Positions 11,890 through 33,058 of a stretch of 64,000 nt of DNA are shown here, piece after piece. The notes beneath the pieces are model-generated. The model made no database searches. It saw only the letters and a program-made list of their open reading frames with translations, and was not told the DNA's origin. This stretch comes from Thalassomonas actiniarum (lineage in GTDB: Bacteria; Pseudomonadota; Gammaproteobacteria; Enterobacterales; Alteromonadaceae), in NCBI RefSeq assembly GCF_000948975.2, contig NZ_CP059735.1, positions 2,728,001-2,792,000 on the forward strand, written 5' to 3'. The translations under genes were made by a program, and so were the position numbers. Position 1 is the stretch's first letter, and each line of letters begins with the position of its first letter.

Positions 11890-11965
11890 TGGTGGACGAT
11901 ACTGGGCTTGAACCAGTGACCCCCGCCTTGTAAGGGCGGTGCTCTCCCAACTGAGCTAATCGTCC
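11890..11965 (-). tRNA. tRNA-Val (UAC), copy 8 of 8 (promoter-distal)
   Basis: 76 nt including encoded CCA. GGACGAT/ATCGTCC acceptor stem; anticodon stem CCGCC/GGCGG around loop CTTACAA, giving anticodon UAC (Val). Sequence identical to the other seven copies. Confidence 0.97.
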
Positions 11966-12004
11966 GTATGGAGATAATTGTTAGCATAATAAAGCGAGGT
12001 AAAG

Positions 12005-12080
12005 TGGTGGACGATACTGGGCTTGAACCAGTGACCCCCGCCTTGTAAGGGCGGTGCTCTCCCAACTGAGCTAATCGTCC
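12005..12080 (-). tRNA. tRNA-Val (UAC), copy 7
   Basis: Identical 76-nt tRNA-Val(UAC) with CCA end; 39 nt from the previous unit. Confidence 0.97.
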
Positions 12081-12136
12081 GTATGGACATATCGGGTAGA
12101 ATCTTGAAATTTACGCTTTATATGAAAAAGATAAAA

Positions 12137-12212
12137 TGGTGGACGATACTGGGCTTGAACCAGTGACCCCCGCCTTGTAAGGGCGGTGCTCTCCCAACTG
12201 AGCTAATCGTCC
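12137..12212 (-). tRNA. tRNA-Val (UAC), copy 6
   Basis: Identical 76-nt tRNA-Val(UAC) with CCA end. The spacers on both sides share the string ATGGACATATCGG, evidence of recent unit duplication. Confidence 0.97.
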
Positions 12213-12264
12213 GCATGGACATATCGGATAATATCTTAAATTTACACTCAAAAGAGCAGGTAAA

Positions 12265-12340
12265 TGGTGGACGATACTGGGCTTGAACCAGTGACCCCCG
12301 CCTTGTAAGGGCGGTGCTCTCCCAACTGAGCTAATCGTCC
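12265..12340 (-). tRNA. tRNA-Val (UAC), copy 5
   Basis: Identical 76-nt tRNA-Val(UAC) with CCA end. Confidence 0.97.
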
Positions 12341-12396
12341 AAAAATATATCTGACAGTACTTCAGGTTTTATACTTTTTGCAAACAAAGGGTAAAG

Positions 12397-12472
12397 TGGT
12401 GGACGATACTGGGCTTGAACCAGTGACCCCCGCCTTGTAAGGGCGGTGCTCTCCCAACTGAGCTAATCGTCC
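12397..12472 (-). tRNA. tRNA-Val (UAC), copy 4
   Basis: Identical 76-nt tRNA-Val(UAC) with CCA end. Confidence 0.97.
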
Positions 12473-12516
12473 AAAGAAACTATCTGATAACTTTACGCTT
12501 TATAGCAGGTGTAAAA

Positions 12517-12592
12517 TGGTGGACGATACTGGGCTTGAACCAGTGACCCCCGCCTTGTAAGGGCGGTGCTCTCCCAACTGAGCTAATCGTCC
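12517..12592 (-). tRNA. tRNA-Val (UAC), copy 3
   Basis: Identical 76-nt tRNA-Val(UAC) with CCA end. Confidence 0.97.
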
Positions 12593-12631
12593 GAATTTTA
12601 CAGTCATTATTGTTTATCTTTAATAAGAAGA

Positions 12632-12707
12632 TGGTGGACGATACTGGGCTTGAACCAGTGACCCCCGCCTTGTAAGGGCGGTGCTCTCCCAACTGAGCTA
12701 ATCGTCC
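12632..12707 (-). tRNA. tRNA-Val (UAC), copy 2
   Basis: Identical 76-nt tRNA-Val(UAC) with CCA end. Confidence 0.97.
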
Positions 12708-12742
12708 GCATATTATTGAAGTAAATAATAATTTTACAAAGA

Positions 12743-12818
12743 TGGTGGACGATACTGGGCTTGAACCAGTGACCCCCGCCTTGTAAGGGCGGTGCTCTCC
12801 CAACTGAGCTAATCGTCC
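12743..12818 (-). tRNA. tRNA-Val (UAC), copy 1 (promoter-proximal)
   Basis: Identical 76-nt tRNA-Val(UAC) with CCA end; its 5' end lies 16 nt from the -10 box of the array promoter. Confidence 0.97.
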
Positions 12819-21791: not shown

Positions 21792-22208
21792 TTATTCGGC
21801 GCCCGGTCCCAGCGGCTGACCGAAACTGAATTCAACGAAATTGCCATCGGGATCTTTGATGCCGCAATAATAGCCTACCGGGTAGGGCTCTTGTTTGCAG
21901 GGCCAGACCAGGATACCGTCCTGTTTTGCCCTGAGTGCGATGTCATCAACCGCCTGCTTGCTGGTCATGGCAAAACCCAGATGGGAAAAGTCATTGCTTT
22001 GCTGGTATTTCTCCGGTCCGCCGGGCAGCATCACCAAAATAAAGTCATGCTCTTTGCCTGTCTCTGCCATCCAGACGATAGATTTACCGTCTATGCCCTG
22101 GGCTCTGCGCTCGCGGATAACATTGAGACCGGCATATTGCTGGTAAAACTCGACACAGGCACGTAAATCTTTTACATGTAAAGCGATATGGGTGAGGGAG
22201 ATCGTCAT
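21792..22208 (-). CDS. VOC-superfamily (glyoxalase-like) protein
   Basis: A 138-aa protein with two beta-alpha-beta-beta-beta modules. The likely metal ligands are His7 (HIALHV), a His in SHLGFAM in the middle, and the Glu of FVEFSFG near the C-terminus. The family includes glyoxalase I, dioxygenases and fosfomycin-resistance enzymes, so the reaction cannot be assigned. Confidence 0.82.
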   Translation of the reverse strand: MTISLTHIALHVKDLRACVEFYQQYAGLNVIRERRAQGIDGKSIVWMAETGKEHDFILVMLPGGPEKYQQSNDFSHLGFAMTSKQAVDDIALRAKQDGILVWPCKQEPYPVGYYCGIKDPDGNFVEFSFGQPLGPGAE

Positions 22209-22251: not shown

Positions 22252-24402
22252 TTATATGGTGGCGCTGATATCGTCTTCTTCTTCGCTGATCAGTTCGCCA
22301 AAATCATCCAGGGCACTTTTGCTGCCTGTTGTTGCCTGCGTCTGTCGCTGCTGGTTCTGTGCCGGTTCAGGCGAGTTCTGTCCGGCTTGTCCTGAGTCCG
22401 GGGTAAACTGGGCGACCAGATCATAAAGCTGGCTTGATTGTTCTGCCAGATGATTTGAGGTCGAAGAAATATGCTCTATTGCTTCGGCTGAGACATTGGC
22501 CAGGTTACTGACATTTTCACCGATATCCCGGATTTCGACGGTCTGCTGGGTTTGCTCTCCCGAGGCGGTAGCGATTTCCAGGGCATGCTGGTTAACATTA
22601 TCAATATTGTTGCTGATGGTGTTGATCGAGGTTTTAGTACCTTCAAGACTGGCCAGCAGCGACTGGGTATCATTGGCGGTAGATTGCATGCATTCGCTTA
22701 ACAGTTGGTTCAGGCGGAAATTCTCCTGTAACAGGTTGCCTATGTTAGTGGTGGAGTCCTGGGTTTTACTGGCCAGCTGGCGGATTTCATCGGCGACGAT
22801 GGCAAAGCCGCGGCCTACTTCCCCGGCCCGGGCGGCTTCAATGGCGGCATTAAGCGCCAGCAGATTGGTTTGATCGGCGATGGTTTTAATGGTGCCGAGC
22901 ATATCCAGCAGGCTTTTGCTCTGGCTGTTGAGCTGGGCAATTTCTGCTTCGAGTTTTTCTATCTCCTGACCCATAGTGATGGCTTTTACGCTTAATGAGT
23001 CCATGTTGTCCAGGCCATCGGCGGCGGCTTCCTTGGCTTTGACCAGCTCCTGCACCGTGGCGTTGGTTTTATCGGCAATTGCCTGGCAAACCGTGTAAAT
23101 TTGTTCGCTGGAATCAGATGCTTTTTCCGTCAGGGAAACACTTTGCCGGGTATTGCCGCTTGCCTCGCTTAGTGACTGCTTGATATGGCTTGAGTCCTGG
23201 CTGATGAGTTTGGCGACATCTATAGTTTTGCCCATCATCGCCTGCAGGTTGGTTAATAATTTATTGAAATGGATTGAGGTCTCGCCGAGTTCATCGCTGG
23301 ACAATACCTCTATTCTCTGAGTTAAATCCGCTTGTCCCTGGGACATTTCCCGCATCATATTACGCAGGGTAAGGATAGGTTTGATAATTTTGGCGTTGGC
23401 AAAGTAAATAACGAAAATACCAAAAGAAATACCACCGATAAACAGGCTCAATAAAATCAGCACATTGGTTTGGGTGGACTTGACCAGCTTCTGGCTGGTA
23501 TCCAGACTGAGTTGTTGCTGGACCTTGACCAGGGTGCCGAGTTCATCGCCGAGTTTCTTGAGCAATTCGCCGAATTCGTTGCGGATCAAATAGGCATCGG
23601 TGCGCCATTTTTCGCTGCTGTGAATATCGATCGCCAGTTCCAGGTGGGAAAAAAAATTGTCCTTGAGCTGGCTAAATTCATCCAGGGCATCGAGTTGCTC
23701 TTCTCCCAGTTGATCTTCTTTTGCACGCAGGCTGATCATGTTTTGCTCCAGCCCTTTTTTAAATAAGTCAACTTCTGACAGGATCTCGCTGTTGCGCAGG
23801 GCAAGGTAATGCCTGACATTACTTAAGATCATCGCCCACTGATATCTGAGATTATGAATATCCAGCAACAAGTTGGCATATTGCTCGACATCCTCAGTAT
23901 CAGACTCTCCCAGCACGATATCTGTGGTCATTTGCAGGGCTTTGCTGCCAAGCGGCTCAAGCTGGTCCCGGGATATTTGCAATGCAGGACGGTTTTTTTC
24001 CGGGTGTTCGGCCAGGTCAAACATCACGGTTTGATAATTGCTGAGCTCATCCACTAAGGTGGCGATGTAATTGATTTGCGGTTGATCTTTTGGCTGGCTG
24101 TCTTGTGCAGACTGATTAAGGATTTGTTTCAACGAGTCCAACTGACTTTTTAAACTACTGAGGTTTTCCAGGTATTTTTGTTTATCAGAGCTTTCCTGGC
24201 TCAGCATATAATAACCCAGGGAGCTGGAGCTTTGGTGTACCTTGTTGGCAAGATCCATGGAGGCAACGAGGGTAGGGATCAATTTCTCAACAAACTGGCC
24301 GGTTTCTCTTTCCATGCTTTTCATGCTGAGATAGGCGACGGTTAAGACCAGCAGCAACATAATTAATAAGCCGCCTAAAGATCCCAGCACTTTTTTTCTC
24401 AT
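22252..24402 (-). CDS. Methyl-accepting chemotaxis protein
   Basis: A 716-aa transmembrane chemoreceptor. Membrane helix 1 is at about 4-25, a long helical periplasmic sensor domain follows (about 26-305, four-helix-bundle type), membrane helix 2 at about 308-328, a HAMP domain, and a cytoplasmic signalling domain whose hairpin tip ([18 protein letters not shown]) is well conserved. It binds CheW and controls CheA. The ATG at 24402 is preferred over an in-frame GTG four codons upstream. The ligand is unknown. It lies 83 nt downstream of the P460 gene on the same strand, so linkage to the electron-transfer locus is possible but unproven. Confidence 0.93.
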
Positions 24403-24485
24403 CGATAATACCACTTGTCTGCCCTCTAAAAATAACTCTGCGGATAGTCAGCTAAGTGAAAAACTTAACCGGCGCTATAGGGTAA

Positions 24486-25136
24486 TTAACGGCTTTGCTC
24501 GGTATAAAAAGTGGAAAAGACGTAATCCCGCTCTTGCATATTTTCATGACATTTCGCACAACTTTGGTAGATATCAACATTGGTGTTATTGCCGCGCATC
24601 ATCAAGTCGCCGTTAGGTGCAAATTGCGTGTATTCCCAGTCGCCTCCTGTCGGGGCATATCCCGGTGGCTTTTTCACCATTAAGGTCAGGGATGTAGGCT
24701 GATGAGGGATACCGTTTTTGACGGTATAGTTTTCTTTTAAAAAGATGGTGCCGACTTCATAACCCTTAAAATATTTATCTTCGGCTGCTTCCTCGTCCTC
24801 ATCTTCATCGTCGTCTTCATTTTGATAAACCCTAAGGTATTCGATGTAATTGTCGCGATAGATATCTGTGCCTTTATTGACATAAATCACGACATAATTG
24901 TTCCAATGCAGGCCGGAAAATTCAAAACCCGTCAACCGGCTCCACTTTTTTCGGTAGTCCCGGGTTTGGGGGTACATAGCCGGAACGGTAAAAAGGCTTT
25001 TATAGTAGGCCTCATCCATATTAAATTCTTCTTTTTGATTTGCATTGGCCGAAGCGGATCCGGCGAAGACAAGAAGCAGTGACAGTAAAAAGGCACTGGT
25101 TACTTTGCTGATATCAATCCCTGATTTCAAAGTCAT
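24486..25136 (-). CDS. Cytochrome P460-family protein
   Basis: A 216-aa exported protein: signal peptide (about 1-31), a beta-rich domain, an unusual acidic Asp/Glu run near residues 100-116, and a single c-type heme site CAKCH near residue 192 close to the C-terminus, which is where cytochromes P460 carry it. P460 proteins of ammonia oxidisers oxidise hydroxylamine or bind NO using a Lys-cross-linked heme; the cross-linking Lys cannot be identified by eye. It is the last of three genes in a row (diheme peroxidase, cupredoxin-like, P460), starting 9 nt after the cupredoxin-like gene, so they are almost certainly co-transcribed. Confidence 0.82.
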   Translation of the reverse strand: MTLKSGIDISKVTSAFLLSLLLVFAGSASANANQKEEFNMDEAYYKSLFTVPAMYPQTRDYRKKWSRLTGFEFSGLHWNNYVVIYVNKGTDIYRDNYIEYLRVYQNEDDDEDEDEEAAEDKYFKGYEVGTIFLKENYTVKNGIPHQPTSLTLMVKKPPGYAPTGGDWEYTQFAPNGDLMMRGNNTNVDIYQSCAKCHENMQERDYVFSTFYTEQSR

Positions 25137-25145
25137 GATTTCTTC

Positions 25146-25772
25146 CTATTGGCGAGAAAGCTTTAAGGTGCCGCGTTGTTTGCCTTTTTTGGAAATCGGC
25201 ACTTCCTTGGTTTCACCCGGCTGCAGCTCGAACTCCATGCTCTTGTAACCCGGCATCAGTAAATTCATGGTGGTTAAGTTACTGGGCACGTCCTTTATTT
25301 GGATTTGATAGTTTTTTTTCTTTTTTTCAAAGTCCAGTACCTGATAGTAGTCGCTGAGGATATTGGCAATGTAGGCGCGCATTTTTGGATGAATTTTACA
25401 GCCGATGCGGACAATCGAGTTTTCCTGCCAGTTAAGCGCAACTTCCGAGGTGGCCCCCGGCTGCATCAGGCCGACATCGAAATTGGCACTATGTTTGGTT
25501 TCATTGGTAAAAATATTATGCTCGACATCATCGGAATTATTGAACTTGATTTGTTGTCCGGAAGAGCCTACCTGGAGTTTCTGGGTAAACTGTTTGTCTT
25601 TTTGATCTATGGTTACCTGGGAGTTGGTGCTTTTGTTGTCCACCAGGTAGATAAGCCCCGCAAAAGGGGGTCTTTTGGTAAATTCCAACTCGGCCGTGAC
25701 CGTATCGGCCAGGGCGCCGCCGGCAAAAGCCAGCGGCAGTAACGAAGTTAATATTTTTTTGCTAAAGCTCAT
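25146..25772 (-). CDS. Secreted cupredoxin-like protein
   Basis: A 208-aa precursor with a signal peptide (cleavage likely after ALA near residue 22). The fold appears plastocyanin-like: an HNIF segment near residue 85 and IGCKIHPKM near residues 122-130 give a His, Cys, His and Met in the type 1 copper order. Homologues are often called methylamine utilization proteins in databases although no methylamine dehydrogenase is present here. The C-terminal 70 residues are beta-rich. It probably shuttles electrons in the periplasm between the diheme peroxidase encoded 68 nt upstream and the P460 protein encoded 9 nt downstream. Confidence 0.75.
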   Translation of the reverse strand: MSFSKKILTSLLPLAFAGGALADTVTAELEFTKRPPFAGLIYLVDNKSTNSQVTIDQKDKQFTQKLQVGSSGQQIKFNNSDDVEHNIFTNETKHSANFDVGLMQPGATSEVALNWQENSIVRIGCKIHPKMRAYIANILSDYYQVLDFEKKKKNYQIQIKDVPSNLTTMNLLMPGYKSMEFELQPGETKEVPISKKGKQRGTLKLSRQ

Positions 25773-25840
25773 AAAACCTCCCTGTTAAATGCTTATCTGA
25801 TTCGAGCAATACCTGCTCTTTTCTGTGTTATCAACGAGTG

Positions 25841-26821
25841 CTAAGGAATTTTTGGGCGCTCAATGACAATGGGATCTGTTAATGCGGCTAAGAAAGCCAG
25901 TAAGTCACTGATTTCATCTTCACTTAAATTCAGCGGCTTAATGAGTTTGCTTACGCCGGCGATGCCCTCGCTGCCCTTGTTATAAAAACGGATCACCGCT
26001 TCGAGGGACGGCTCTGAGCCGTCGTGCATATAAGGGGAGGTTAGCCAGACATTTCTCAGGCCCGGAGTTTTAAACGCGCCTTTCATGCCCTGGGCCTTGC
26101 TGATTTTTTCTCTGCCGGCGTCATTGTTATTTACGCCGATATTATGAAAACTGTCGTCGGTAAAGTTGACGCCGTCATGGCATTTGGTGCAGCGTGCTTT
26201 GCCTTCAAATAAAGCCAATCCGCGAATAGCCGCGGGATCCATGGCGTTTTTATCTCCCTGTATATAACGGTCGAAAGAAGAATTTCGGGTGATAATACTG
26301 CGCTCAAAGGCGGATATTGCCCGGGCAATAGTGGTCTTGTTGATGCCGGAGTCGCCATAGGCGGCTTTAAACAGTTTTTGATAGCCGGGGACTTTCTTGA
26401 GCCTCTTGATTAATTGCGGCAGCGGCATGTTCATTTCGCCGGGGGCAGATATCGGGCCCAGTGCCTGCTCTTCAAGGGTTTTCGCCCGACCGTCCCAAAA
26501 GAAGATTGAGCTCCAGGCCAGGTTGTAAATATGCGGGGTATTTCTGCCAAGCACTTCACCCATGGTGCCTAAACCTGTTGCCATGCCGTCGCCAAAACCC
26601 ATTTCCGGGTTATGGCAGGTGGCGCAGGATTGCTTTTCGTTTAAAGACAAACGGGGGTCGAAAAACAGCACTTTACCCAGTTCAATTTCTTCGGCGGTGG
26701 GGGGCTCGTCATCGGGATATTCGATGTCTTCCAGGGATGGCGTGCCCAATTCTGCTGCAAAAACCAGTAACGGTAGGGTAAAAATGAAAGCAACCAGATT
26801 TAAAAAGATTCTTTTTAACAC
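25841..26821 (-). CDS. Diheme cytochrome c peroxidase / MauG family
   Basis: A 326-aa periplasmic protein with a signal peptide (about 1-23) and two c-heme sites, CATCH (66-70) and CTKCH (211-215). The YMHDGS stretch with Met265 is where family members place the axial Met of the high-potential heme. Members either reduce H2O2 with electrons from cytochrome c or cupredoxin, or carry out oxidative protein modification (MauG). It is the first gene of the minus-strand set and is divergent from the cytochrome c gene at 27058. Its immediate cupredoxin-like neighbour is a plausible electron donor. Confidence 0.92.
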   Translation of the reverse strand: MLKRIFLNLVAFIFTLPLLVFAAELGTPSLEDIEYPDDEPPTAEEIELGKVLFFDPRLSLNEKQSCATCHNPEMGFGDGMATGLGTMGEVLGRNTPHIYNLAWSSIFFWDGRAKTLEEQALGPISAPGEMNMPLPQLIKRLKKVPGYQKLFKAAYGDSGINKTTIARAISAFERSIITRNSSFDRYIQGDKNAMDPAAIRGLALFEGKARCTKCHDGVNFTDDSFHNIGVNNNDAGREKISKAQGMKGAFKTPGLRNVWLTSPYMHDGSEPSLEAVIRFYNKGSEGIAGVSKLIKPLNLSEDEISDLLAFLAALTDPIVIERPKIP

Positions 26822-27057
26822 GGCATTCTCCTTTGCTTTATATCTTGCTGATTTACTTGTGGTATTTCCTTGATGCTTTGTTTTCCAACATCTTATTGCA
26901 GCAGTTTAAGTGTTAGCAACTCTAATATTTAGACCATAATTTTAAAAAAAACAAACCAGTAGACTGGCAATTTTTTGAGCAAGTAAAAATCATCATCTAT
27001 ACTGGGTTTGAAGATTATGAATGAAGTCTATTTTTATGTTATTTCAAGGGAAATGTT

Positions 27058-27495
27058 ATGACGTTTAAAATTGCCACAGTTAATTTCATTTTTACCTCCA
27101 TCGTATTTATATTCACTTTTGTTTTTACTTCTGAGCTTGTTTTTGCCTATCAGGAAAAACCTGCTCCCTGGCGTGTTTCTGCGCGTAAAGCGAAAATTAA
27201 AAATCCTATTCCGATTGATGAAGCTTCCGTCAGCATGGGTAAAGAGATTTACCAGCGGGAATGCCAGGAATGCCACGGCACTAACGGTAATGGTGACGGC
27301 CCCGAGGCGGCTAAGCTAGATAAAATGGTCAAAGACTTTGCCGAGGACGGTATGTGGGCGCAAACCGACGGCGCCATCTACTGGAAAATCCGCACCGGCA
27401 GAAGGCCTATGCCCGGCTTCAAGAAATTATTGAGTAAAGAAGAGATCTGGCATGTGATCAATTACGTGCGCCATGATTTCGAACCTGAAAAATAA
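27058..27495 (+). CDS. Monoheme class I cytochrome c
   Basis: A 145-aa precursor: hydrophobic N-terminus (about 10-30, signal peptide or anchor), CQECH at 69-73, and MPGF near residue 119 providing the axial Met. The single domain of about 85 residues is a small soluble electron carrier. It opens the plus-strand half of the locus; the multiheme gene starts 23 nt after its stop. Confidence 0.92.
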   Translation: MTFKIATVNFIFTSIVFIFTFVFTSELVFAYQEKPAPWRVSARKAKIKNPIPIDEASVSMGKEIYQRECQECHGTNGNGDGPEAAKLDKMVKDFAEDGMWAQTDGAIYWKIRTGRRPMPGFKKLLSKEEIWHVINYVRHDFEPEK

Positions 27496-27518
27496 CCTGA
27501 CCTTCAGAAGCCTACATT

Positions 27519-29366
27519 ATGCTTATATATTTGAATCTTATCCTGATGCTGTCCGGAAGAAAGCTGCTGGCGGGAGGTTTTTGCCGCCGGCTTAAAAGCA
27601 CCTTGCCTATGTCCGATCTTGCTGTGGCAGCGTTAATTTTGTCCTTGTTATGGTCTGATGCGGTATTATCGGTCTCCCCTGAGACGGTACAGGGAGGAGT
27701 TGAACAGGCTCAGGAGGATCAAGCACCTGTGCTAAACCCGGACCATCAGGCACTGCTGGAGCAAGTTGAGTTTCCCTCGGCGCAGGAATGCGGTGGTTGT
27801 CATATCGATATTTATCGCGAATGGTCGGTTTCCCGGCATGCTTACGCACAAACCAGTCCCACCTTTCTCGCCTACCAGGCGACTTTAGTGAAACTGACCA
27901 ACGGCACCCTGGGGGATTTTTGCCAGCGCTGCCATTCTCAAACCGGCATGTCCAGCAGTGAAGCCATACTCACCAGTAACAGCAATCGGGGCGCGGTATC
28001 CAAAGAAGGGGTTACCTGTATCGTTTGTCACCGGGTGGCGGGGGAATACGGTAAAATAAGCGGCCGGCTGCCAATTGAATCCGGCGATATTTACAAACCT
28101 GTATATGGTCCCAGGCCGGGAGACGAGCTTGAACGCGTGCTGGCATCGCAAAAGGGTCGCCCGCCTAAGGTACATAAAGAAGCCCGTCACCTGGAGCAGG
28201 TTTCCCAGTCAGGGTTTTGTGCCCGTTGCCATGATGTCCGCCTGGTGAACGGCTTCCGTTTAGAAGATGCGTTTAGCGAATATAAGCAGACACCGGCAGC
28301 AAAACGGGGAGAATCCTGTCAGGATTGCCATATGGGGCCGATTCCCGGTATTGCTTCACAGTATCCTCATGCACCGGCAGCCGTGGTCAGGGGAACCCCG
28401 AGTAAACCGGCGAAAAGAACCAACCATATGTTTGTCGGTCCGGACAGCCCTTTGGTGCATCCGGGGATTTTTCCGATAGACCCCGAAGCACAGGAGTTTG
28501 CCACCCCGGAGCAATGGCTGGGCTTTGATTATAAAGCCGGCTGGGGCACCGAGGCATTTGAACAGGACATCAGTGATTCAGAGGAAGATCAGCGTCAGTT
28601 TACCGGCATCTGGCAAGATCAGGATGAGCGATATATGGCGCGGGAAATTATCGACCGCCAGCTGGCCCTGCGCGCCGAAGCCCATGCCCGGGGAACCGCT
28701 TTATTGCGTAACGGTTATGGCTTGGGGGATATCGAGGTGCTTGACTCCGGTGACGGTCTGGCGTTTAAAGTGCAGGTGAAAAATCTGACCGACGGTCACA
28801 GCGTACCCACAGGTTTGATTGCCGAGCGCAATGTTTTTTTACAGGTGAGTGTGACCGATCAGCAAGATCAGGTGCTTTTCCGCTCGGGGGATCTGGATCC
28901 TAACGGCGATGTCAGGGATTCGCATTCTTTGTATGTACATAATGGCTCCATGCCCCTTGACGAGCAGTTATTTAATTTACGCTCTCCTTTTATGGTACAC
29001 ACCGCCTATGGCGGGGAAAGGGAGCAGGTATTGCCGGCAAATTATTCCTTTGACCCTTTGATTTTTATGCGGCCATCGCCGACTCCCGCTTTGTTAATGG
29101 GGGGGATCCGGGATATCCGTCTACAAAAACGCAGTATAGAAGCTAACGGCTACCGTTGGGCAAACTATCGGGTGGCACCTGAGCAATTAAGCGGACACGG
29201 GCCTTACAAGGTGAACGTTAAGCTGGTTGCCGGGCAATTGCCGCCGCACCTTATTCATGCGATATCGGGAGCCGGATTTGAATACGGTCTCAGTGCCCGG
29301 GATATCGGGGATAGGATGGTAGAGCTTTACCGGGTGCTGTGGGAGCGTGATCTTGTTATTAACTAG
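27519..29366 (+). CDS. Five-heme cytochrome c, c554-like
   Basis: A 615-aa exported protein with five CxxCH sites within 180 residues: CGGCH (91-95), CQRCH (135-139), CIVCH (167-171), CARCH (234-238) and CQDCH (267-271). The spacing and the H-rich loops resemble the cytochrome c554/c' family, in which hemes are stacked for electron transfer. A C-terminal region of about 250 residues (from about 385) contains no heme and looks beta-rich. The N-terminus is long for a signal peptide; Met31 (27609), followed by a hydrophobic stretch, is an alternative start. The gene for a predicted barrel begins inside its last codons, so the two products are probably made in a fixed ratio. Confidence 0.85.
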   Translation: MLIYLNLILMLSGRKLLAGGFCRRLKSTLPMSDLAVAALILSLLWSDAVLSVSPETVQGGVEQAQEDQAPVLNPDHQALLEQVEFPSAQECGGCHIDIYREWSVSRHAYAQTSPTFLAYQATLVKLTNGTLGDFCQRCHSQTGMSSSEAILTSNSNRGAVSKEGVTCIVCHRVAGEYGKISGRLPIESGDIYKPVYGPRPGDELERVLASQKGRPPKVHKEARHLEQVSQSGFCARCHDVRLVNGFRLEDAFSEYKQTPAAKRGESCQDCHMGPIPGIASQYPHAPAAVVRGTPSKPAKRTNHMFVGPDSPLVHPGIFPIDPEAQEFATPEQWLGFDYKAGWGTEAFEQDISDSEEDQRQFTGIWQDQDERYMAREIIDRQLALRAEAHARGTALLRNGYGLGDIEVLDSGDGLAFKVQVKNLTDGHSVPTGLIAERNVFLQVSVTDQQDQVLFRSGDLDPNGDVRDSHSLYVHNGSMPLDEQLFNLRSPFMVHTAYGGEREQVLPANYSFDPLIFMRPSPTPALLMGGIRDIRLQKRSIEANGYRWANYRVAPEQLSGHGPYKVNVKLVAGQLPPHLIHAISGAGFEYGLSARDIGDRMVELYRVLWERDLVIN

Positions 29367-30843
29367 CATCTTACCCTGTGATGGGAAATCTCTTTTATCT
29401 GCTGCCGGCTTTTGTTGTCTGCTGATTTGCCCGCCGGGGCTGGCAGAAAGCGCGCAGGATGAGCAACAGCAGCGGCCGCAGCAAGAAACTGTGCCGCAAG
29501 GGCGTGAGGCTTTATCTTTTTATCCGATAACAGAGCAAGCCGAGATAGAAAAAAACCGGCTCTCGGATCAAGCGATCGCCTATCCGGCAAATCCGGTTTC
29601 CCGGCTGAGTCCCCTGTTAGAGTTCGGGGATGATTTTTTAGGGCGAGGGCCGATAAAACCCGGGATAAAAACACCGTTTGAGCAAATGTTACAGCCGACA
29701 TTTTTGCTTTATGGTCAGTTCAGAAGTGCGCTGCAAAGTTATGATGCCGAAGGTAAAGATATCGTGCAATGGAGTACCCGGCTGGATTTGCATGGTGATG
29801 TCAAGCTGTCCGGGACCGAGCGTATTGTTTTTTCATTAAGGCCGCTTGATAACGATAAAGGTGAGGATACCGGCTTTACTTTCAGTCCCGATGGCGGTGA
29901 AGATAACTGGCACGATCAAACCAACGGCAAGTTAACCCAGCTGTTTTTTGAAGGGGAGATCGGCGAGATATTTCCCCGCCTTGATCCCAGCGACAGCAAA
30001 ACCTGGGATATCGGTTTTTCTGTCGGCAGGCAGGAGCTTAAAGTCCAGGACGGTATTTTACTTAATGACACCTTTGATGCCTTAGGCATTACCCGCAATT
30101 CATTGATCGCACGCGGCCTGCCAAACTTGCGGCTCACCGCCCTCTATGGCTGGCATGATATTGATAATCCCTTTGCCGACGTGACTTCTCCAAGCAGGCT
30201 GTTTGGATTGTTATCCCAGGCAGATACCGCCTGGGATAACAGCTTAGATCTGGATATGGTTTATGTGGATAACGATAACAGTGCCAATGCCTGGTATCTG
30301 GGGCTGGGTTCTACCCAAAGGATTGGCATGATTAATTCAACCTTCCGGATCAATACCGAGATCCCGTTGGATGAAGATAACAGCACACTCAGTAAAGGCA
30401 CTTTAGTGACGGCAGAATTGTCGGGCGGTTTTGCCCACTCGGATGACCTTTGGTATTTCAATTCTTTCCTCAGTTTTGATGACTTCTCTTCTGCTGCCCG
30501 TAGCCGGGACGGCGGCGTGCCGCTGGCTAATATCGGTATGTTGTTTTCTCCTGTCGGCATGGGGCAATATGGTGTGCCCCTGGGAGACAGCATAGAGGAT
30601 ACCTATGGCGCGGTGGCCGGATATCAGCACTTTTTTGGCGGCATCGGCTCCCAGTTTATTGTCGAGCTGGCAGCAAGGAGCAGCATGAAAAGTCAGCAAA
30701 AGCGCGATGCTGTCGGCGTTGGCCTGAGGTATCAGAAGAGCTTAAGCCGGCAGACCTTAATACGTTTTGATACTTTTTTTGCCGTCAAAGAAAAGCAGCA
30801 ATCGGCTAAAGGCGTGCGATTGGAATGGTTATTAAAGTTTTAA
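29353..30843 (+). CDS. Predicted outer-membrane beta-barrel protein
   Basis: A 496-aa exported protein. After a signal peptide the sequence alternates polar and hydrophobic residues with many aromatic and Gly residues, ends in Phe (WLLKF) and carries no long hydrophobic helices, which together suggest an outer-membrane barrel of roughly 16-18 strands. TTG at 29353 has GGGAG 7 nt upstream, inside the preceding multiheme gene, so the genes overlap by 14 nt and are translationally coupled. I do not recognise a named family; a porin through which the multiheme cytochrome could exchange electrons (as in MtrAB) or substrates is an inference. Confidence 0.7.
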   Translation: MLLTSILPCDGKSLLSAAGFCCLLICPPGLAESAQDEQQQRPQQETVPQGREALSFYPITEQAEIEKNRLSDQAIAYPANPVSRLSPLLEFGDDFLGRGPIKPGIKTPFEQMLQPTFLLYGQFRSALQSYDAEGKDIVQWSTRLDLHGDVKLSGTERIVFSLRPLDNDKGEDTGFTFSPDGGEDNWHDQTNGKLTQLFFEGEIGEIFPRLDPSDSKTWDIGFSVGRQELKVQDGILLNDTFDALGITRNSLIARGLPNLRLTALYGWHDIDNPFADVTSPSRLFGLLSQADTAWDNSLDLDMVYVDNDNSANAWYLGLGSTQRIGMINSTFRINTEIPLDEDNSTLSKGTLVTAELSGGFAHSDDLWYFNSFLSFDDFSSAARSRDGGVPLANIGMLFSPVGMGQYGVPLGDSIEDTYGAVAGYQHFFGGIGSQFIVELAARSSMKSQQKRDAVGVGLRYQKSLSRQTLIRFDTFFAVKEKQQSAKGVRLEWLLKF

Positions 30844-30884
30844 CATCCTGGTGAAGTGAACAGGATCATGGTGCTGTACCCTAT

Positions 30885-31041
30885 GGCCTGTTTATCTTTG
30901 GAGGGGATTAAAATTTTTGAGCGTTTTTGTATTTATCAAGGCAGAAAAATGGACGTGTGGTTATTCTACATGACATTTTTCTAACGCCGATAAATGGAAA
31001 AATAGCCGAAAAGATAATTCACGGTCAAAGATAAGCAGGCC
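30885..31041 (+). repeat. 157-bp inverted-repeat element, copy A
   Basis: Ends are GGCCTGTTTATCTTTG (30885-30900) and CAAAGATAAGCAGGCC (31026-31041), 16-bp terminal inverted repeats with one mismatch. The interior matches the copy at 47864-48020 (opposite orientation) over most of its length, including TCAAGGCAGAAAAATGGA and TTCTACATGACATTTTTC. It lies between the barrel gene and the triheme gene. Copies of exactly equal length point to a MITE-type mobile element. Confidence 0.8.
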
Positions 31042-31086
31042 CTGGGTGCTTAGCGAAATATCCCAGCGATTTAAAAAGGTTATGTC

Positions 31087-32463
31087 ATGCTAAAAACAAT
31101 ACAAAGTTGGCAGTGGCTAATATTGACAATTGCAATCACAATTTTGGTCTCCATCCTGGTTTCTGCTTTTTTAGCCTTTGCCCGGCAACCGGCAAGTACG
31201 CCTGTGATGCGGGGATATTACCTGGCCCAGGAAATGGGGTGTTTTGCCTGCCATGGACCAGGCGGGGTCCAGGGGGCAGCGAACTTTGGCGCCCTGTGGG
31301 GGGAAACTCCGCCTTTTAAAGCCGGCGGCGCCATCATGTCTTTTATCCAAAGTGATCAGGATATCAGGGAGTGGATTTTATACGGCCTGCCGCGCCGGTT
31401 ATGGAAAGATGATGTTAAACCGGAAGTGAAAGTGTATCGTGCCAGTGAGTATGGCAAGGACTGGGTGCATGAACTCGGGGTTGGCGGCATAGTGAAAATG
31501 CCGGCTTACGAAGGTCTGTTTTCCGATGAGGAACTGGAGGATCTGCTGGCCTTTGTTAAGTTGATGTCAGAGTCGAAAAAGCCGATATCTGAGCTGGAGC
31601 TTAAAGGGCGGGATCTGGCGTCAAGCCTTGGCTGTATGGGGTGTCATGGCCCGGACGGACGTGGCGGTATTTCTAATCCCGGTAGTTTTAAAGGTTATAT
31701 TCCCCCCTGGGACGGGGATGACTATGCCGAGCTGGTCAGAAACGAAGATGAGTTACGGCAGTGGATTCTGGAAGGAAAAATCGATCGCCTGGAAAAAAAT
31801 CCCCTAGCCACCTATTTCACCCACGGGCAAACCATTCAAATGCCGGCCTTTGAAAATGTTTTGCGGGACGGGGATTTAGAGGCGATTATTGCTTATATTA
31901 ATTGGCTCAGGGACAATCCTATCAGTGATCATTCCATGAGCGATCTTGGTCCCTGGATATCATCAACGGTTCCGGACTTTCCCGATATCACCGAGCGCGG
32001 CAAATGGCTATACGAGCGTTCGGGCTGTGTTTCCTGTCACGGGCCTGCCGGCATAGGAGGGGTGGCCAATAAAAATGCCTCCGGGGGGTATGTGCCTTCG
32101 CTGGAAGATCTGGCGGAAAACATGGAATTGTTCGAACCGGAAGAAGTGGATATGGTGATCTCTATTTTAAACCGGGGCATCAGCCTTGATGATGAGGAGC
32201 TGGAGGTACCGCTTGAGCATTTTGACAGTATTTTAGGCCAGTATAAAAGCATTCGTAAATTGATCCTCACCGGGGCGAGGCCCGGCAGTAAGGGACAGCC
32301 GCCGGCCATGGTAATGCCTGCCTGGCGGCACAGGTTATATACCGATAATTCACCGCCGTCCCAGGCGGATATCAATGCCATTATCGCCTATCTGATCAGC
32401 TTGTATGAATTTGAAGAGGAAGATGGTGAAGAAATGATCGTAGCAGTGGAAGATGAAGAGTGA
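31087..32463 (+). CDS. Membrane-anchored triheme cytochrome c
   Basis: A 458-aa protein with an N-terminal membrane anchor (about 10-32) and three tandem class I cytochrome c domains. Heme sites are CFACH (52-56), CMGCH (183-187) and CVSCH (314-318), evenly spaced by 131 residues; each is followed by its own axial Met motif (KMPAYE, QMPAFE, VMPAWR). The even spacing points to internal triplication. The tail is very acidic. It would be an inner-membrane-tethered periplasmic electron carrier, such as a quinol-to-periplasm relay. The HAMP protein gene follows 31 nt after its stop. Confidence 0.9.
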   Translation: MLKTIQSWQWLILTIAITILVSILVSAFLAFARQPASTPVMRGYYLAQEMGCFACHGPGGVQGAANFGALWGETPPFKAGGAIMSFIQSDQDIREWILYGLPRRLWKDDVKPEVKVYRASEYGKDWVHELGVGGIVKMPAYEGLFSDEELEDLLAFVKLMSESKKPISELELKGRDLASSLGCMGCHGPDGRGGISNPGSFKGYIPPWDGDDYAELVRNEDELRQWILEGKIDRLEKNPLATYFTHGQTIQMPAFENVLRDGDLEAIIAYINWLRDNPISDHSMSDLGPWISSTVPDFPDITERGKWLYERSGCVSCHGPAGIGGVANKNASGGYVPSLEDLAENMELFEPEEVDMVISILNRGISLDDEELEVPLEHFDSILGQYKSIRKLILTGARPGSKGQPPAMVMPAWRHRLYTDNSPPSQADINAIIAYLISLYEFEEEDGEEMIVAVEDEE

Positions 32464-32494
32464 GTTTTTTGACAGTTAACCTTAGGTGTCCAAT

Positions 32495-33058
32495 ATGGTC
32501 AAGAATCAAAGAAGATTGATATTAATTAACCCCGGCTATCAAAACAGGATAGGGATATTTTCGGGACTGATGGCGGTGATCAGTGTGTTGATCGGGGTCG
32601 GCAGCCTGACCTTATTGCCTTTGCTGGCAGGGGCTTTCTCAAAGCAACGCACTTATATCCCCACCAATATTCTCGACATGCTGATGTTGTCATTTCCCTG
32701 GCTGGTGATGATGTTGGGCTTGATTTTTACTTGCCTGGTGTTTGTCGGTATCTATTTCAGTCACCGGGTGGCGGGCCCGCTGCATAAAATAGAAATGTCT
32801 ATTAAGGACAGGATCAAAGGAGAAGAGGTGCCGCCGATTATCCTCAGGGATAAAGATCATATGAAAGACCTGGCTAATCTCTTGAACCAGTTGGTAGATA
32901 AATATACCGGGTCGGAGCAAATGAACCAGGAGCTGGTTGAGCTGCTTACCCCCTTGTTAGCCGGGGTGAAACGGGAGGAAGAGAGCAGTATTACCCTGGC
33001 TCCCGAGCAGGTTGCACAATTGCTGGATATTATGCAACCGGATAACGAACCGCTTTAG
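32495..33058 (+). CDS. Membrane protein with two helices and a HAMP domain
   Basis: A 187-aa inner-membrane protein: helix 1 at about 20-45, a short periplasmic loop, helix 2 at about 60-85, then a HAMP domain starting SHRVAGPLHKIE and ending near residue 145. There is no kinase, cyclase or methyl-accepting output domain. Stand-alone HAMP proteins of this type have no settled role; co-location with a triheme cytochrome suggests a redox-responsive or structural partner. ATG at 32495 is used; a GTG three codons upstream is possible. Confidence 0.75.
   Translation: MVKNQRRLILINPGYQNRIGIFSGLMAVISVLIGVGSLTLLPLLAGAFSKQRTYIPTNILDMLMLSFPWLVMMLGLIFTCLVFVGIYFSHRVAGPLHKIEMSIKDRIKGEEVPPIILRDKDHMKDLANLLNQLVDKYTGSEQMNQELVELLTPLLAGVKREEESSITLAPEQVAQLLDIMQPDNEPL

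Follow-up and report, generated by a model that had tools for sequence, protein, structure and literature searches.

Do the divergent haem- and copper-protein genes of Thalassomonas actiniarum (genome size, 7.5 Mb) form a single electron-transfer pathway, or do two separable systems lie side by side? The window analysed here, a 64,000-nucleotide stretch of contig NZ_CP059735.1 (positions 2,728,001 to 2,792,000), contains a locus that an earlier note, made from the sequence alone, had presented as an undescribed-looking electron-transfer locus of eight genes, whose products were assigned to the inner membrane, periplasm and outer membrane and might serve one pathway. The locus is read best as two modules, module A on the minus strand (22252-26821) and module B on the plus strand (27058-33058; Table 1). 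On balance, and by no wide measure, we hold it probable that module A is a periplasmic sensory device and module B a variant of the PCC4 type of porin-cytochrome system. This explanation builds on gene content, conserved adjacency, predicted folds, residue patterns and the homology of sensor domains that have swapped their output.

Two gene sets at one locus

All eight listed open reading frames (ORFs) were recovered with their coordinates and strands, and the two divergent sets and 12 c-type haem motifs claimed for them are borne out by the ORF list and a CXXCH count: one motif in the P460 protein, two in the MauG-like protein, one, five and three in the monohaem, pentahaem and trihaem cytochromes, and none in the cupredoxin, the barrel or the HAMP-like protein. 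Pfam supports the P460, CCP/MauG and cytochrome c identities, and AlphaFold2 models and structure matches uphold the cupredoxin-like and barrel labels. The minus-strand set is, moreover, prolonged beyond the region covered by the note by a ninth gene, encoding a chemoreceptor, 71 bp past the P460 gene; the MauG-like and cupredoxin genes are 68 bp apart, and those of the cupredoxin and P460 9 bp. Between positions 22000 and 34000, promoter-like sites are in no clear excess (19, against 15.8 with a standard deviation of 3.5 in shuffled sequences).

Table 1. Features of the two modules, with positions in the window and the basis of each assignment
Feature	Position	Strand	Basis
Transmembrane chemoreceptor, 720 aa; four-helix-bundle-type sensor, HAMP and MCP signalling domain	22252-24414	-	Pfam
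P460-family monohaem protein, 216 aa; Lys134 present, Thr151 for the distal carboxylate	24486-25136	-	Pfam PF16694 (8.6e-13), alignments
Two-domain cupredoxin, 208 aa; ligands His85, Cys125, His128, Met131	25146-25772	-	AlphaFold2, Foldseek, ligand alignment
MauG/CCP-type dihaem protein, 326 aa; Tyr280 at the Met-ligand position of bacterial CCP	25841-26821	-	Pfam CCP_MauG (2.3e-59)
Divergent intergenic region between the modules, 236 bp	26822-27057		ORF coordinates
Monohaem cytochrome c, 145 aa	27058-27495	+	Pfam Cytochrome_CBB3 (2.2e-14)
Pentahaem c-type cytochrome, 615 aa; C-terminal part c552-similar	27519-29366	+	Five CXXCH; profile match to c552 5ze8 (1.8e-16)
Outer-membrane beta-barrel, 498 aa; 20-bp overlap with the pentahaem gene	29347-30843	+	AlphaFold2, Foldseek
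Trihaem cytochrome c, 458 aa; N-terminal membrane anchor (by eye)	31087-32463	+	Three Cytochrom_C stretches (Pfam)
Small HAMP-like membrane protein, 190 aa; two transmembrane segments (by eye)	32486-33058	+	Homologues beside pentahaem and barrel in loci L013 and L014

Because the entire locus is preserved in 4/4 Thalassomonas genomes, a chance arrangement is excluded. The idea of an undescribed-looking redox locus with probable parts in both membranes and the periplasm is likewise supported; the locus is kept in the genus and in a metagenome-assembled genome (MAG) of Algicola, from another family. These are the only genomes, among those searched, in which the modules are adjacent. The Algicola order is monohaem-trihaem-HAMP-like-pentahaem-barrel, then P460-cupredoxin-MauG on the opposite strand and, beyond the triad, a divergently oriented chemoreceptor (MCP).

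Elsewhere the two sets part company. The MauG-cupredoxin-P460 triad recurs in five genomes of another family of the same order, and none of the five gave a pentahaem match, a weak negative that had no positive control; genomes G105 and G193 of that family were also negative in the order-wide search. At E<=1e-20, the pentahaem protein is found in only two of the order's 295 genomes. A further 44 pentahaem-bearing genomes outside the genus were drawn from the best 80 pentahaem loci: 13 of them encode a cupredoxin at E<=1e-10, and only three (Algicola, Acidobacteriota and SAR324) a close one (>180 bits), which is linked to the pentahaem locus in Algicola alone; the other 41 have no close cupredoxin. 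Independent occurrence of the two sets had been named beforehand as the observation that would tell against a single pathway, and it is largely what we found. A single indivisible eight-gene pathway is therefore rejected.

Whether modules A and B are functionally linked is, in our estimate, about an even question. The view that lateral transfer brought them together by chance, with no link in function, falls just short of an even chance. It accommodates the finding that most genomes searched with one module lack the other and that the pentahaem protein is missing from 293 of the 295 genomes of the order, but it sits uneasily with the adjacency seen in four Thalassomonas genomes and, reordered, in a MAG of another family.

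Sensors beside the minus-strand triad

The genomic context of the minus-strand genes points to signalling rather than catabolism. The receptor of module A has the layout of a chemoreceptor, with a periplasmic sensor followed by HAMP (3.1e-9) and MCPsignal (3.2e-35) domains; its match to the four-helix-bundle family 4HB_MCP_1 (1e-5) falls just below the Pfam cut-off (25.6 against 27 bits). In G105 and G193, the MauG-cupredoxin-P460 genes are followed by one for a 4HB/CHASE3-like GGDEF protein. Their family contains the triad-type P460 in 5 of 146 genomes, all of one genus (here g20), and the four-gene order is identical in all five, each with a GGDEF output. Despite unrelated output domains, the Thalassomonas receptor and the g20 GGDEF proteins have homologous sensor regions (28-31% over 254-358 aa, E 1e-33 to 5e-42). 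When a profile of this sensor was run against the order at E<=1e-10, 12 of the 295 genomes matched, and the top three (462-551 bits) were the three in which a triad had been recognised by inspecting the genes around the best cupredoxin hits. The next match is a receptor at 154 bits with no triad genes in the 14 kb inspected, and the rest are weaker.

Twelve triad loci were found, four in Thalassomonas, five in the g20 genomes and one each in Algicola, SAR324 and Acidobacteriota, and in every one of them the triad adjoins a gene for a transmembrane sensor, with either MCP or GGDEF as its output. These loci span five lineages and three phyla, provided that the MAG bins are correct. SAR324 and Acidobacteriota possess complete triads by CHASE4-HAMP-MCP receptors, in differing gene orders and, for the Acidobacteriota receptor, with CHASE4 and HAMP under the Pfam cut-off. 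As a control, none of the 20 genes downstream of ordinary P460s (same strand, <=400 bp) encodes a sensor domain; 5 of the 25 loci had no such ORF and were left out, and several of the 20 ORFs are short. In Pseudomonas aeruginosa, CHASE4 sensors (IsmP/PA2072, PA14_53310 and PA14_37690) are, according to the parts of the two reports consulted, GGDEF-EAL proteins with a periplasmic CHASE4 domain that respond to iron, haem or copper (PMC10904736, PMC13277305), and the main texts of these reports make no mention of a cupredoxin. The Thalassomonas receptor differs from them in its 4HB-type sensor and MCP output.

The cupredoxin has the same kind of company well beyond the triad. By sequence it misses its Pfam cut-off (13.6 against 21.2 bits); its AlphaFold2 model (pLDDT 96.5, pTM 0.90) is aligned by Foldseek, over roughly half its length, with amicyanin and with cupredoxin domains, and the predicted cupredoxin fold is accompanied by His-Cys-His-Met ligand columns that are invariant in 28/28 rows. 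Its profile matches 43 of the 295 genomes of the order at E<=1e-8, mostly through distant relatives. Directly after 18 of 19 distant cupredoxins, on the same strand, lies a gene for a sensor with dCache_3, CHASE4, HAMP, GGDEF or cyclase domains (the 19 come from 22 loci, L099-L120, of which L104, L105 and L108 had been removed beforehand by an E-value and length filter). Genome G059 provides another such case. T. actiniarum itself encodes a second, distant cupredoxin (C1:5901725-5902009; L128:7510-8046), which is followed by a dCache_3-HAMP-GGDEF-EAL protein (L128:5164-7491), and three consecutive genes of SAR324 (L197:7460-10383) encode a cupredoxin, a protein that by eye is STAS-like, and a CHASE4-HAMP-adenylate cyclase. 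The family also includes proteins annotated as 'methylamine utilization protein', for which a function may thus come into view; one of them is encoded on the Caballeronia plasmid pSBC2-4 (L139), where DUF3034, a group 1 truncated haemoglobin, the cupredoxin and an EAL protein are consecutive. To judge from these neighbourhoods, the cupredoxin family appears to be tied to sensors in general. Among the top literature matches (titles and the starts of abstracts, with subscription journals mostly outside coverage), no paper describes the triad or the link between cupredoxins and sensors.

Three further observations concern this family. The SAR324 array lies on a contig of 247,271 bp, about 13 kb from the pentahaem locus L028 of the same genome; neighbours resembling truncated haemoglobins also stand by the cupredoxins of L125, L127 and L129 (by eye); and the cupredoxin of the window has a sub-threshold NCBIfam similarity to hydrazine synthase beta (E 0.002). 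A plasmid search with this cupredoxin gave three matches, all distant.

In our reading, module A senses redox state or a gas in the periplasm. The P460 protein would respond to redox state or bind a small ligand such as NO or peroxide, and the MauG-like protein and the cupredoxin would relay electrons or modify a partner protein; the former may itself react with peroxide and mature or oxidise the P460/cupredoxin pair. The redox or ligand state of that pair would be sensed by the neighbouring 4HB-HAMP-MCP receptor through its periplasmic domain, and the receptor would then drive chemotaxis or, in relatives with a GGDEF output, c-di-GMP synthesis. The ligand, the direction of electron flow, contact between the cupredoxin or P460 and the receptor, and the coupling of A to B are the parts of the overall explanation that we infer. 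If it holds, it bears on periplasmic redox and gas sensing, and on the way in which electroactive bacteria locate donors or acceptors of electrons; the cell's own electron flow may be a cue that guides its movement.

The plus-strand cytochromes and barrel

Module B centres on the pentahaem cytochrome and the barrel. The former, with a signal peptide starting near residue 31 (by eye), matches multihaem c families in Pfam and, below the cut-off (27.8 against 30 bits), the MtrC/MtrF domain. The AlphaFold2 model of the barrel (pLDDT 81.4, pTM 0.76) has about 18 strands, counted from the listed elements, and outer-membrane barrels head the 50 PDB matches listed for it, out of 242 at E<=0.001. To survey their relatives, a four-protein pentahaem alignment was run against the species-genome collection; the best 80 of at least 366 confirmed relatives, together with L007, gave 81 loci. 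The barrel gene adjoins the pentahaem gene in 77 of these, the four misses being contig ends, and in three loci the two share one open frame (the frames of L032 and L049 were read). Gene clusters found nearby encode a 4- or 8-haem protein (51 loci), a 10-haem protein (46), a 275-aa membrane protein (41), a cNMP/Fe-S protein (40) and a flavin reductase (29).

The membrane protein of these relatives is cytochrome b-like; of its 41 copies, 36 contain WX3HX13H two or more times and 36 contain SGXXG. Two WX3HX13H motifs and SGXXG are the marks of the PCC4 inner-membrane protein in the sections of He et al. 2017 (PMC5566968) that we drew on. Because the relatives' protein bears these marks, we assign the wider pentahaem-barrel family to PCC4, which would then span more phyla than those sections name. 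Module B appears to be a variant of this putative porin-cytochrome system. As in PCC4 as described there, its porin gene lies beside that of the 5-haem cytochrome, whereas PCC4-homologous loci elsewhere also bear 4- and 10-haem cytochromes, the WX3HX13H/SGXXG inner-membrane protein and an Fe-S protein. Neither the 4- and 10-haem periplasmic cytochromes nor such an inner-membrane protein nor the Fe-S protein is encoded among the ORFs of the Thalassomonas locus, and a search of its own genome with one such inner-membrane protein found none at E<=0.01 (a weak negative from a single query). In their place stand the monohaem c, the trihaem c and the small membrane protein, so that the PCC4 core may be able to exchange its inner-membrane half. 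With MtrAB, MtoAB and PioAB, the locus has in common an outer-membrane barrel and a periplasmic multihaem cytochrome. It differs from the decahaem cytochrome in a barrel of 26-28 strands that defines this type, having 5 haems against 10 and about 18 strands against 28, as far as the part of PMC5566968 consulted goes. No Mtr chain was among the PDB profile matches.

The replacement parts recur elsewhere. Homologues of all three lie beside the pentahaem gene in the Algicola MAG, a homologue of the membrane protein does so in a Nitrospinota MAG, the trihaem protein has a homologue in L014 (59%), and in a Methylococcales MAG the monohaem c and the pentahaem protein are naturally fused in frame, with six CXXCH (L012:864-2942). 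The trihaem c is otherwise rare, being found in 1 of the 295 genomes of the order, the window's own. As to the label 'HAMP protein', given to the small membrane protein by the earlier note, no Pfam family matches at E<=0.1, HAMP included; what stands behind it are sub-threshold NCBIfam matches (E 0.005-0.016), some of them to HAMP-bearing sensors. The pentahaem proteins of Algicola, Methylococcales and Nitrospinota form one clade with two Thalassomonas rows (SH-aLRT 100), in a tree that places L045 and L007 on long branches. Such a clade across lineages, combined with the rarity of this pentahaem protein in the order, points to lateral spread of the variant. A plasmid search with the pentahaem protein gave five matches, all distant.

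Under the explanation that we favour, the pentahaem cytochrome and the barrel would serve electron exchange at the outer membrane or through it, the monohaem c would ferry electrons across the periplasm, and the membrane-anchored trihaem c would give electrons to, or take them from, the inner-membrane chain at the level of cytochrome c. A bolder proposal, which we consider unlikely though worth stating, is that the locus couples an outer-membrane conduit to behaviour through a P460-cupredoxin-MauG relay, and that the cupredoxin family is a widespread, undescribed class of co-receptors. If this were true, the cell would steer by extracellular electron flow, its chemoreceptor reading the state of a relay set by periplasmic electrons or oxidant; the family would provide MCP, GGDEF(-EAL) and adenylate cyclase sensors with redox-active co-receptors in the periplasm, and P460 or truncated haemoglobin would be interchangeable gas-binding partners of the cupredoxins.

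Several points weigh against sensing and conduit alike. Linkage to a sensor gene does not equal contact with the receptor, and homologues of the 4HB sensor exist as orphan receptors. Family cupredoxins exist without P460 or MauG, and many of the 19 distant-cupredoxin loci come from few genera and are hence non-independent. The MAGs of Algicola (9.2 Mb), Acidobacteriota (11.6 Mb) and SAR324 (9.7 Mb) are of a size that may reflect mixed bins, and the genome searches covered samples. In Foldseek, the model of the barrel has the look of a solute channel (MOMP, AlgE and OprD/Occ), and MtrB is not among the 50 PDB matches listed of 242 (E<=0.001); the conduit is putative, and module B could be a channel with a periplasmic enzyme rather than a wire.

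This last alternative, in which a small substrate enters by the barrel and is acted on by the pentahaem protein as a periplasmic oxidoreductase, is a serious one, even if we lean against it. Solute channels are the closest structures to the barrel model among the matches listed, and the pentahaem protein shows a relationship to cytochrome c552 and a weak one to MccA (E 0.0015) and MccSep (E 0.09). Against it stand the 4- and 10-haem cytochromes and the cytochrome b-like membrane protein in relatives, as well as the three loci where one open frame holds both pentahaem and barrel, all of which suit a path of electrons bound to the membrane.

P460 and the MauG-like protein

The residue that sets the dihaem protein of module A apart is Tyr280, which aligns with the Met ligand of bacterial CCP. 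In MauG, a Tyr stands at the position of this CCP ligand, and the same holds for 10/10 triad MauG-like proteins aligned. A classical cytochrome c peroxidase was therefore rejected as an identity. With its two CXXCH motifs, its CCP_MauG domain and this Tyr, the protein is like MauG and MbnH. It differs from them in scoring below the cut-offs of TIGR03791 (E 2.9e-91; 305.7 against 443.85 bits) and TIGR04039, and in having P460 and cupredoxin genes as neighbours. Because of the Tyr, protein modification is a possible activity. The protein also has a sub-threshold NCBIfam similarity to hydrazine synthase gamma (9e-8).

For the P460 protein, the earlier note had considered oxidation of hydroxylamine. 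The protein shares with the P460/c'-beta superfamily, as outlined in the part of a review consulted (PMC11928373), the Pfam P460 domain, a C-terminal CXXCH and a Lys at the cross-link column (K134). It departs from that superfamily in its acidic stretch before the P460 domain, in its cupredoxin, MauG-like and sensor neighbours, and in having no distal carboxylate. In a profile alignment, Thr151 falls opposite Ala in 6amg, Glu in 6e0x, Gln in 6e0y and Asp in 6hiu/9hrk, and we take this column as the review's distal carboxylate site. Among the triad P460s aligned, the cross-link Lys is present in 11/11 and the carboxylate in none (nine Thr, one Val and one Ala); the alignments cover 11 P460s and 10 MauG-like proteins of the 12 loci, with L009 omitted from both and L195 from the latter. 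Ordinary P460s of the class, for comparison, have Lys at the cross-link column in 19 of 25 and Asp or Glu at the carboxylate column in 18; these are the 25 best-scoring loci from the 53 of 229 class genomes that matched, and the frame of L182 has a stop. NsP460, which is cross-linked and has no distal carboxylate either, is inactive in hydroxylamine oxidation according to the same part of the review (PMC11928373), where an NO-binding role is proposed for c'-beta proteins. With the carboxylate absent, hydroxylamine oxidation by the triad P460 is unlikely. It is probably not a hydroxylamine oxidase, a role that we rejected as the principal account of this protein, and ligand binding, redox sensing or electron transfer are the roles that this leaves. 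The triad thus offers a test case of a blue-copper-type family with adjoining sensors and of a P460 that keeps its cross-link Lys without the catalytic carboxylate.

Could module A instead serve maturation or detoxification, its MauG-like enzyme using peroxide to form the Lys-haem cross-link or to modify the cupredoxin, the pair scavenging NO or peroxide, and the receptor sensing the same stress? The MauG-like Tyr in 10/10 proteins and the presence of MauG and P460 together in 12/12 triad loci found speak for such a set. The cross-link is peroxide-dependent in vitro, but the part of the review consulted also describes it as forming spontaneously during aerobic expression, so that no maturase is required (PMC11928373). 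As the sensors beside distant cupredoxins without a neighbouring P460 are moreover left unexplained, we regard this alternative as improbable. Least tenable, and very improbable in our judgement, is one nitrogen-oxidation pathway in which P460 oxidises hydroxylamine or NO and the cupredoxin and c cytochromes carry the electrons outward or to an oxidase: the P460 domain, its cross-link lysine and the grouping of the eight genes in 4/4 genus genomes and Algicola agree with it, whereas the carboxylate position, the inactivity of the similar NsP460 with hydroxylamine (PMC11928373, in part), the separate occurrence of the two gene sets and the constancy of sensor genes as neighbours of the triad all speak against it.

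The triad P460 is rare, being found in 1 of 369 genomes of the wider class sampling, the window's own, and a plasmid search with it gave no match. A second P460-domain match in the T. actiniarum genome (C1:3138853-3139185) lies inside a 501-aa open frame. Among the 20 genes downstream of ordinary P460s (L158-L182), seven encode ECF sigma factors and one a zf-HC2-family zinc finger; these neighbours suggest another regulatory role for P460. Elsewhere in the window, on the minus strand at 11890-12818, eight tandem tRNA-Val genes, all with anticodon TAC, form a long single-tRNA array within less than 1 kb.

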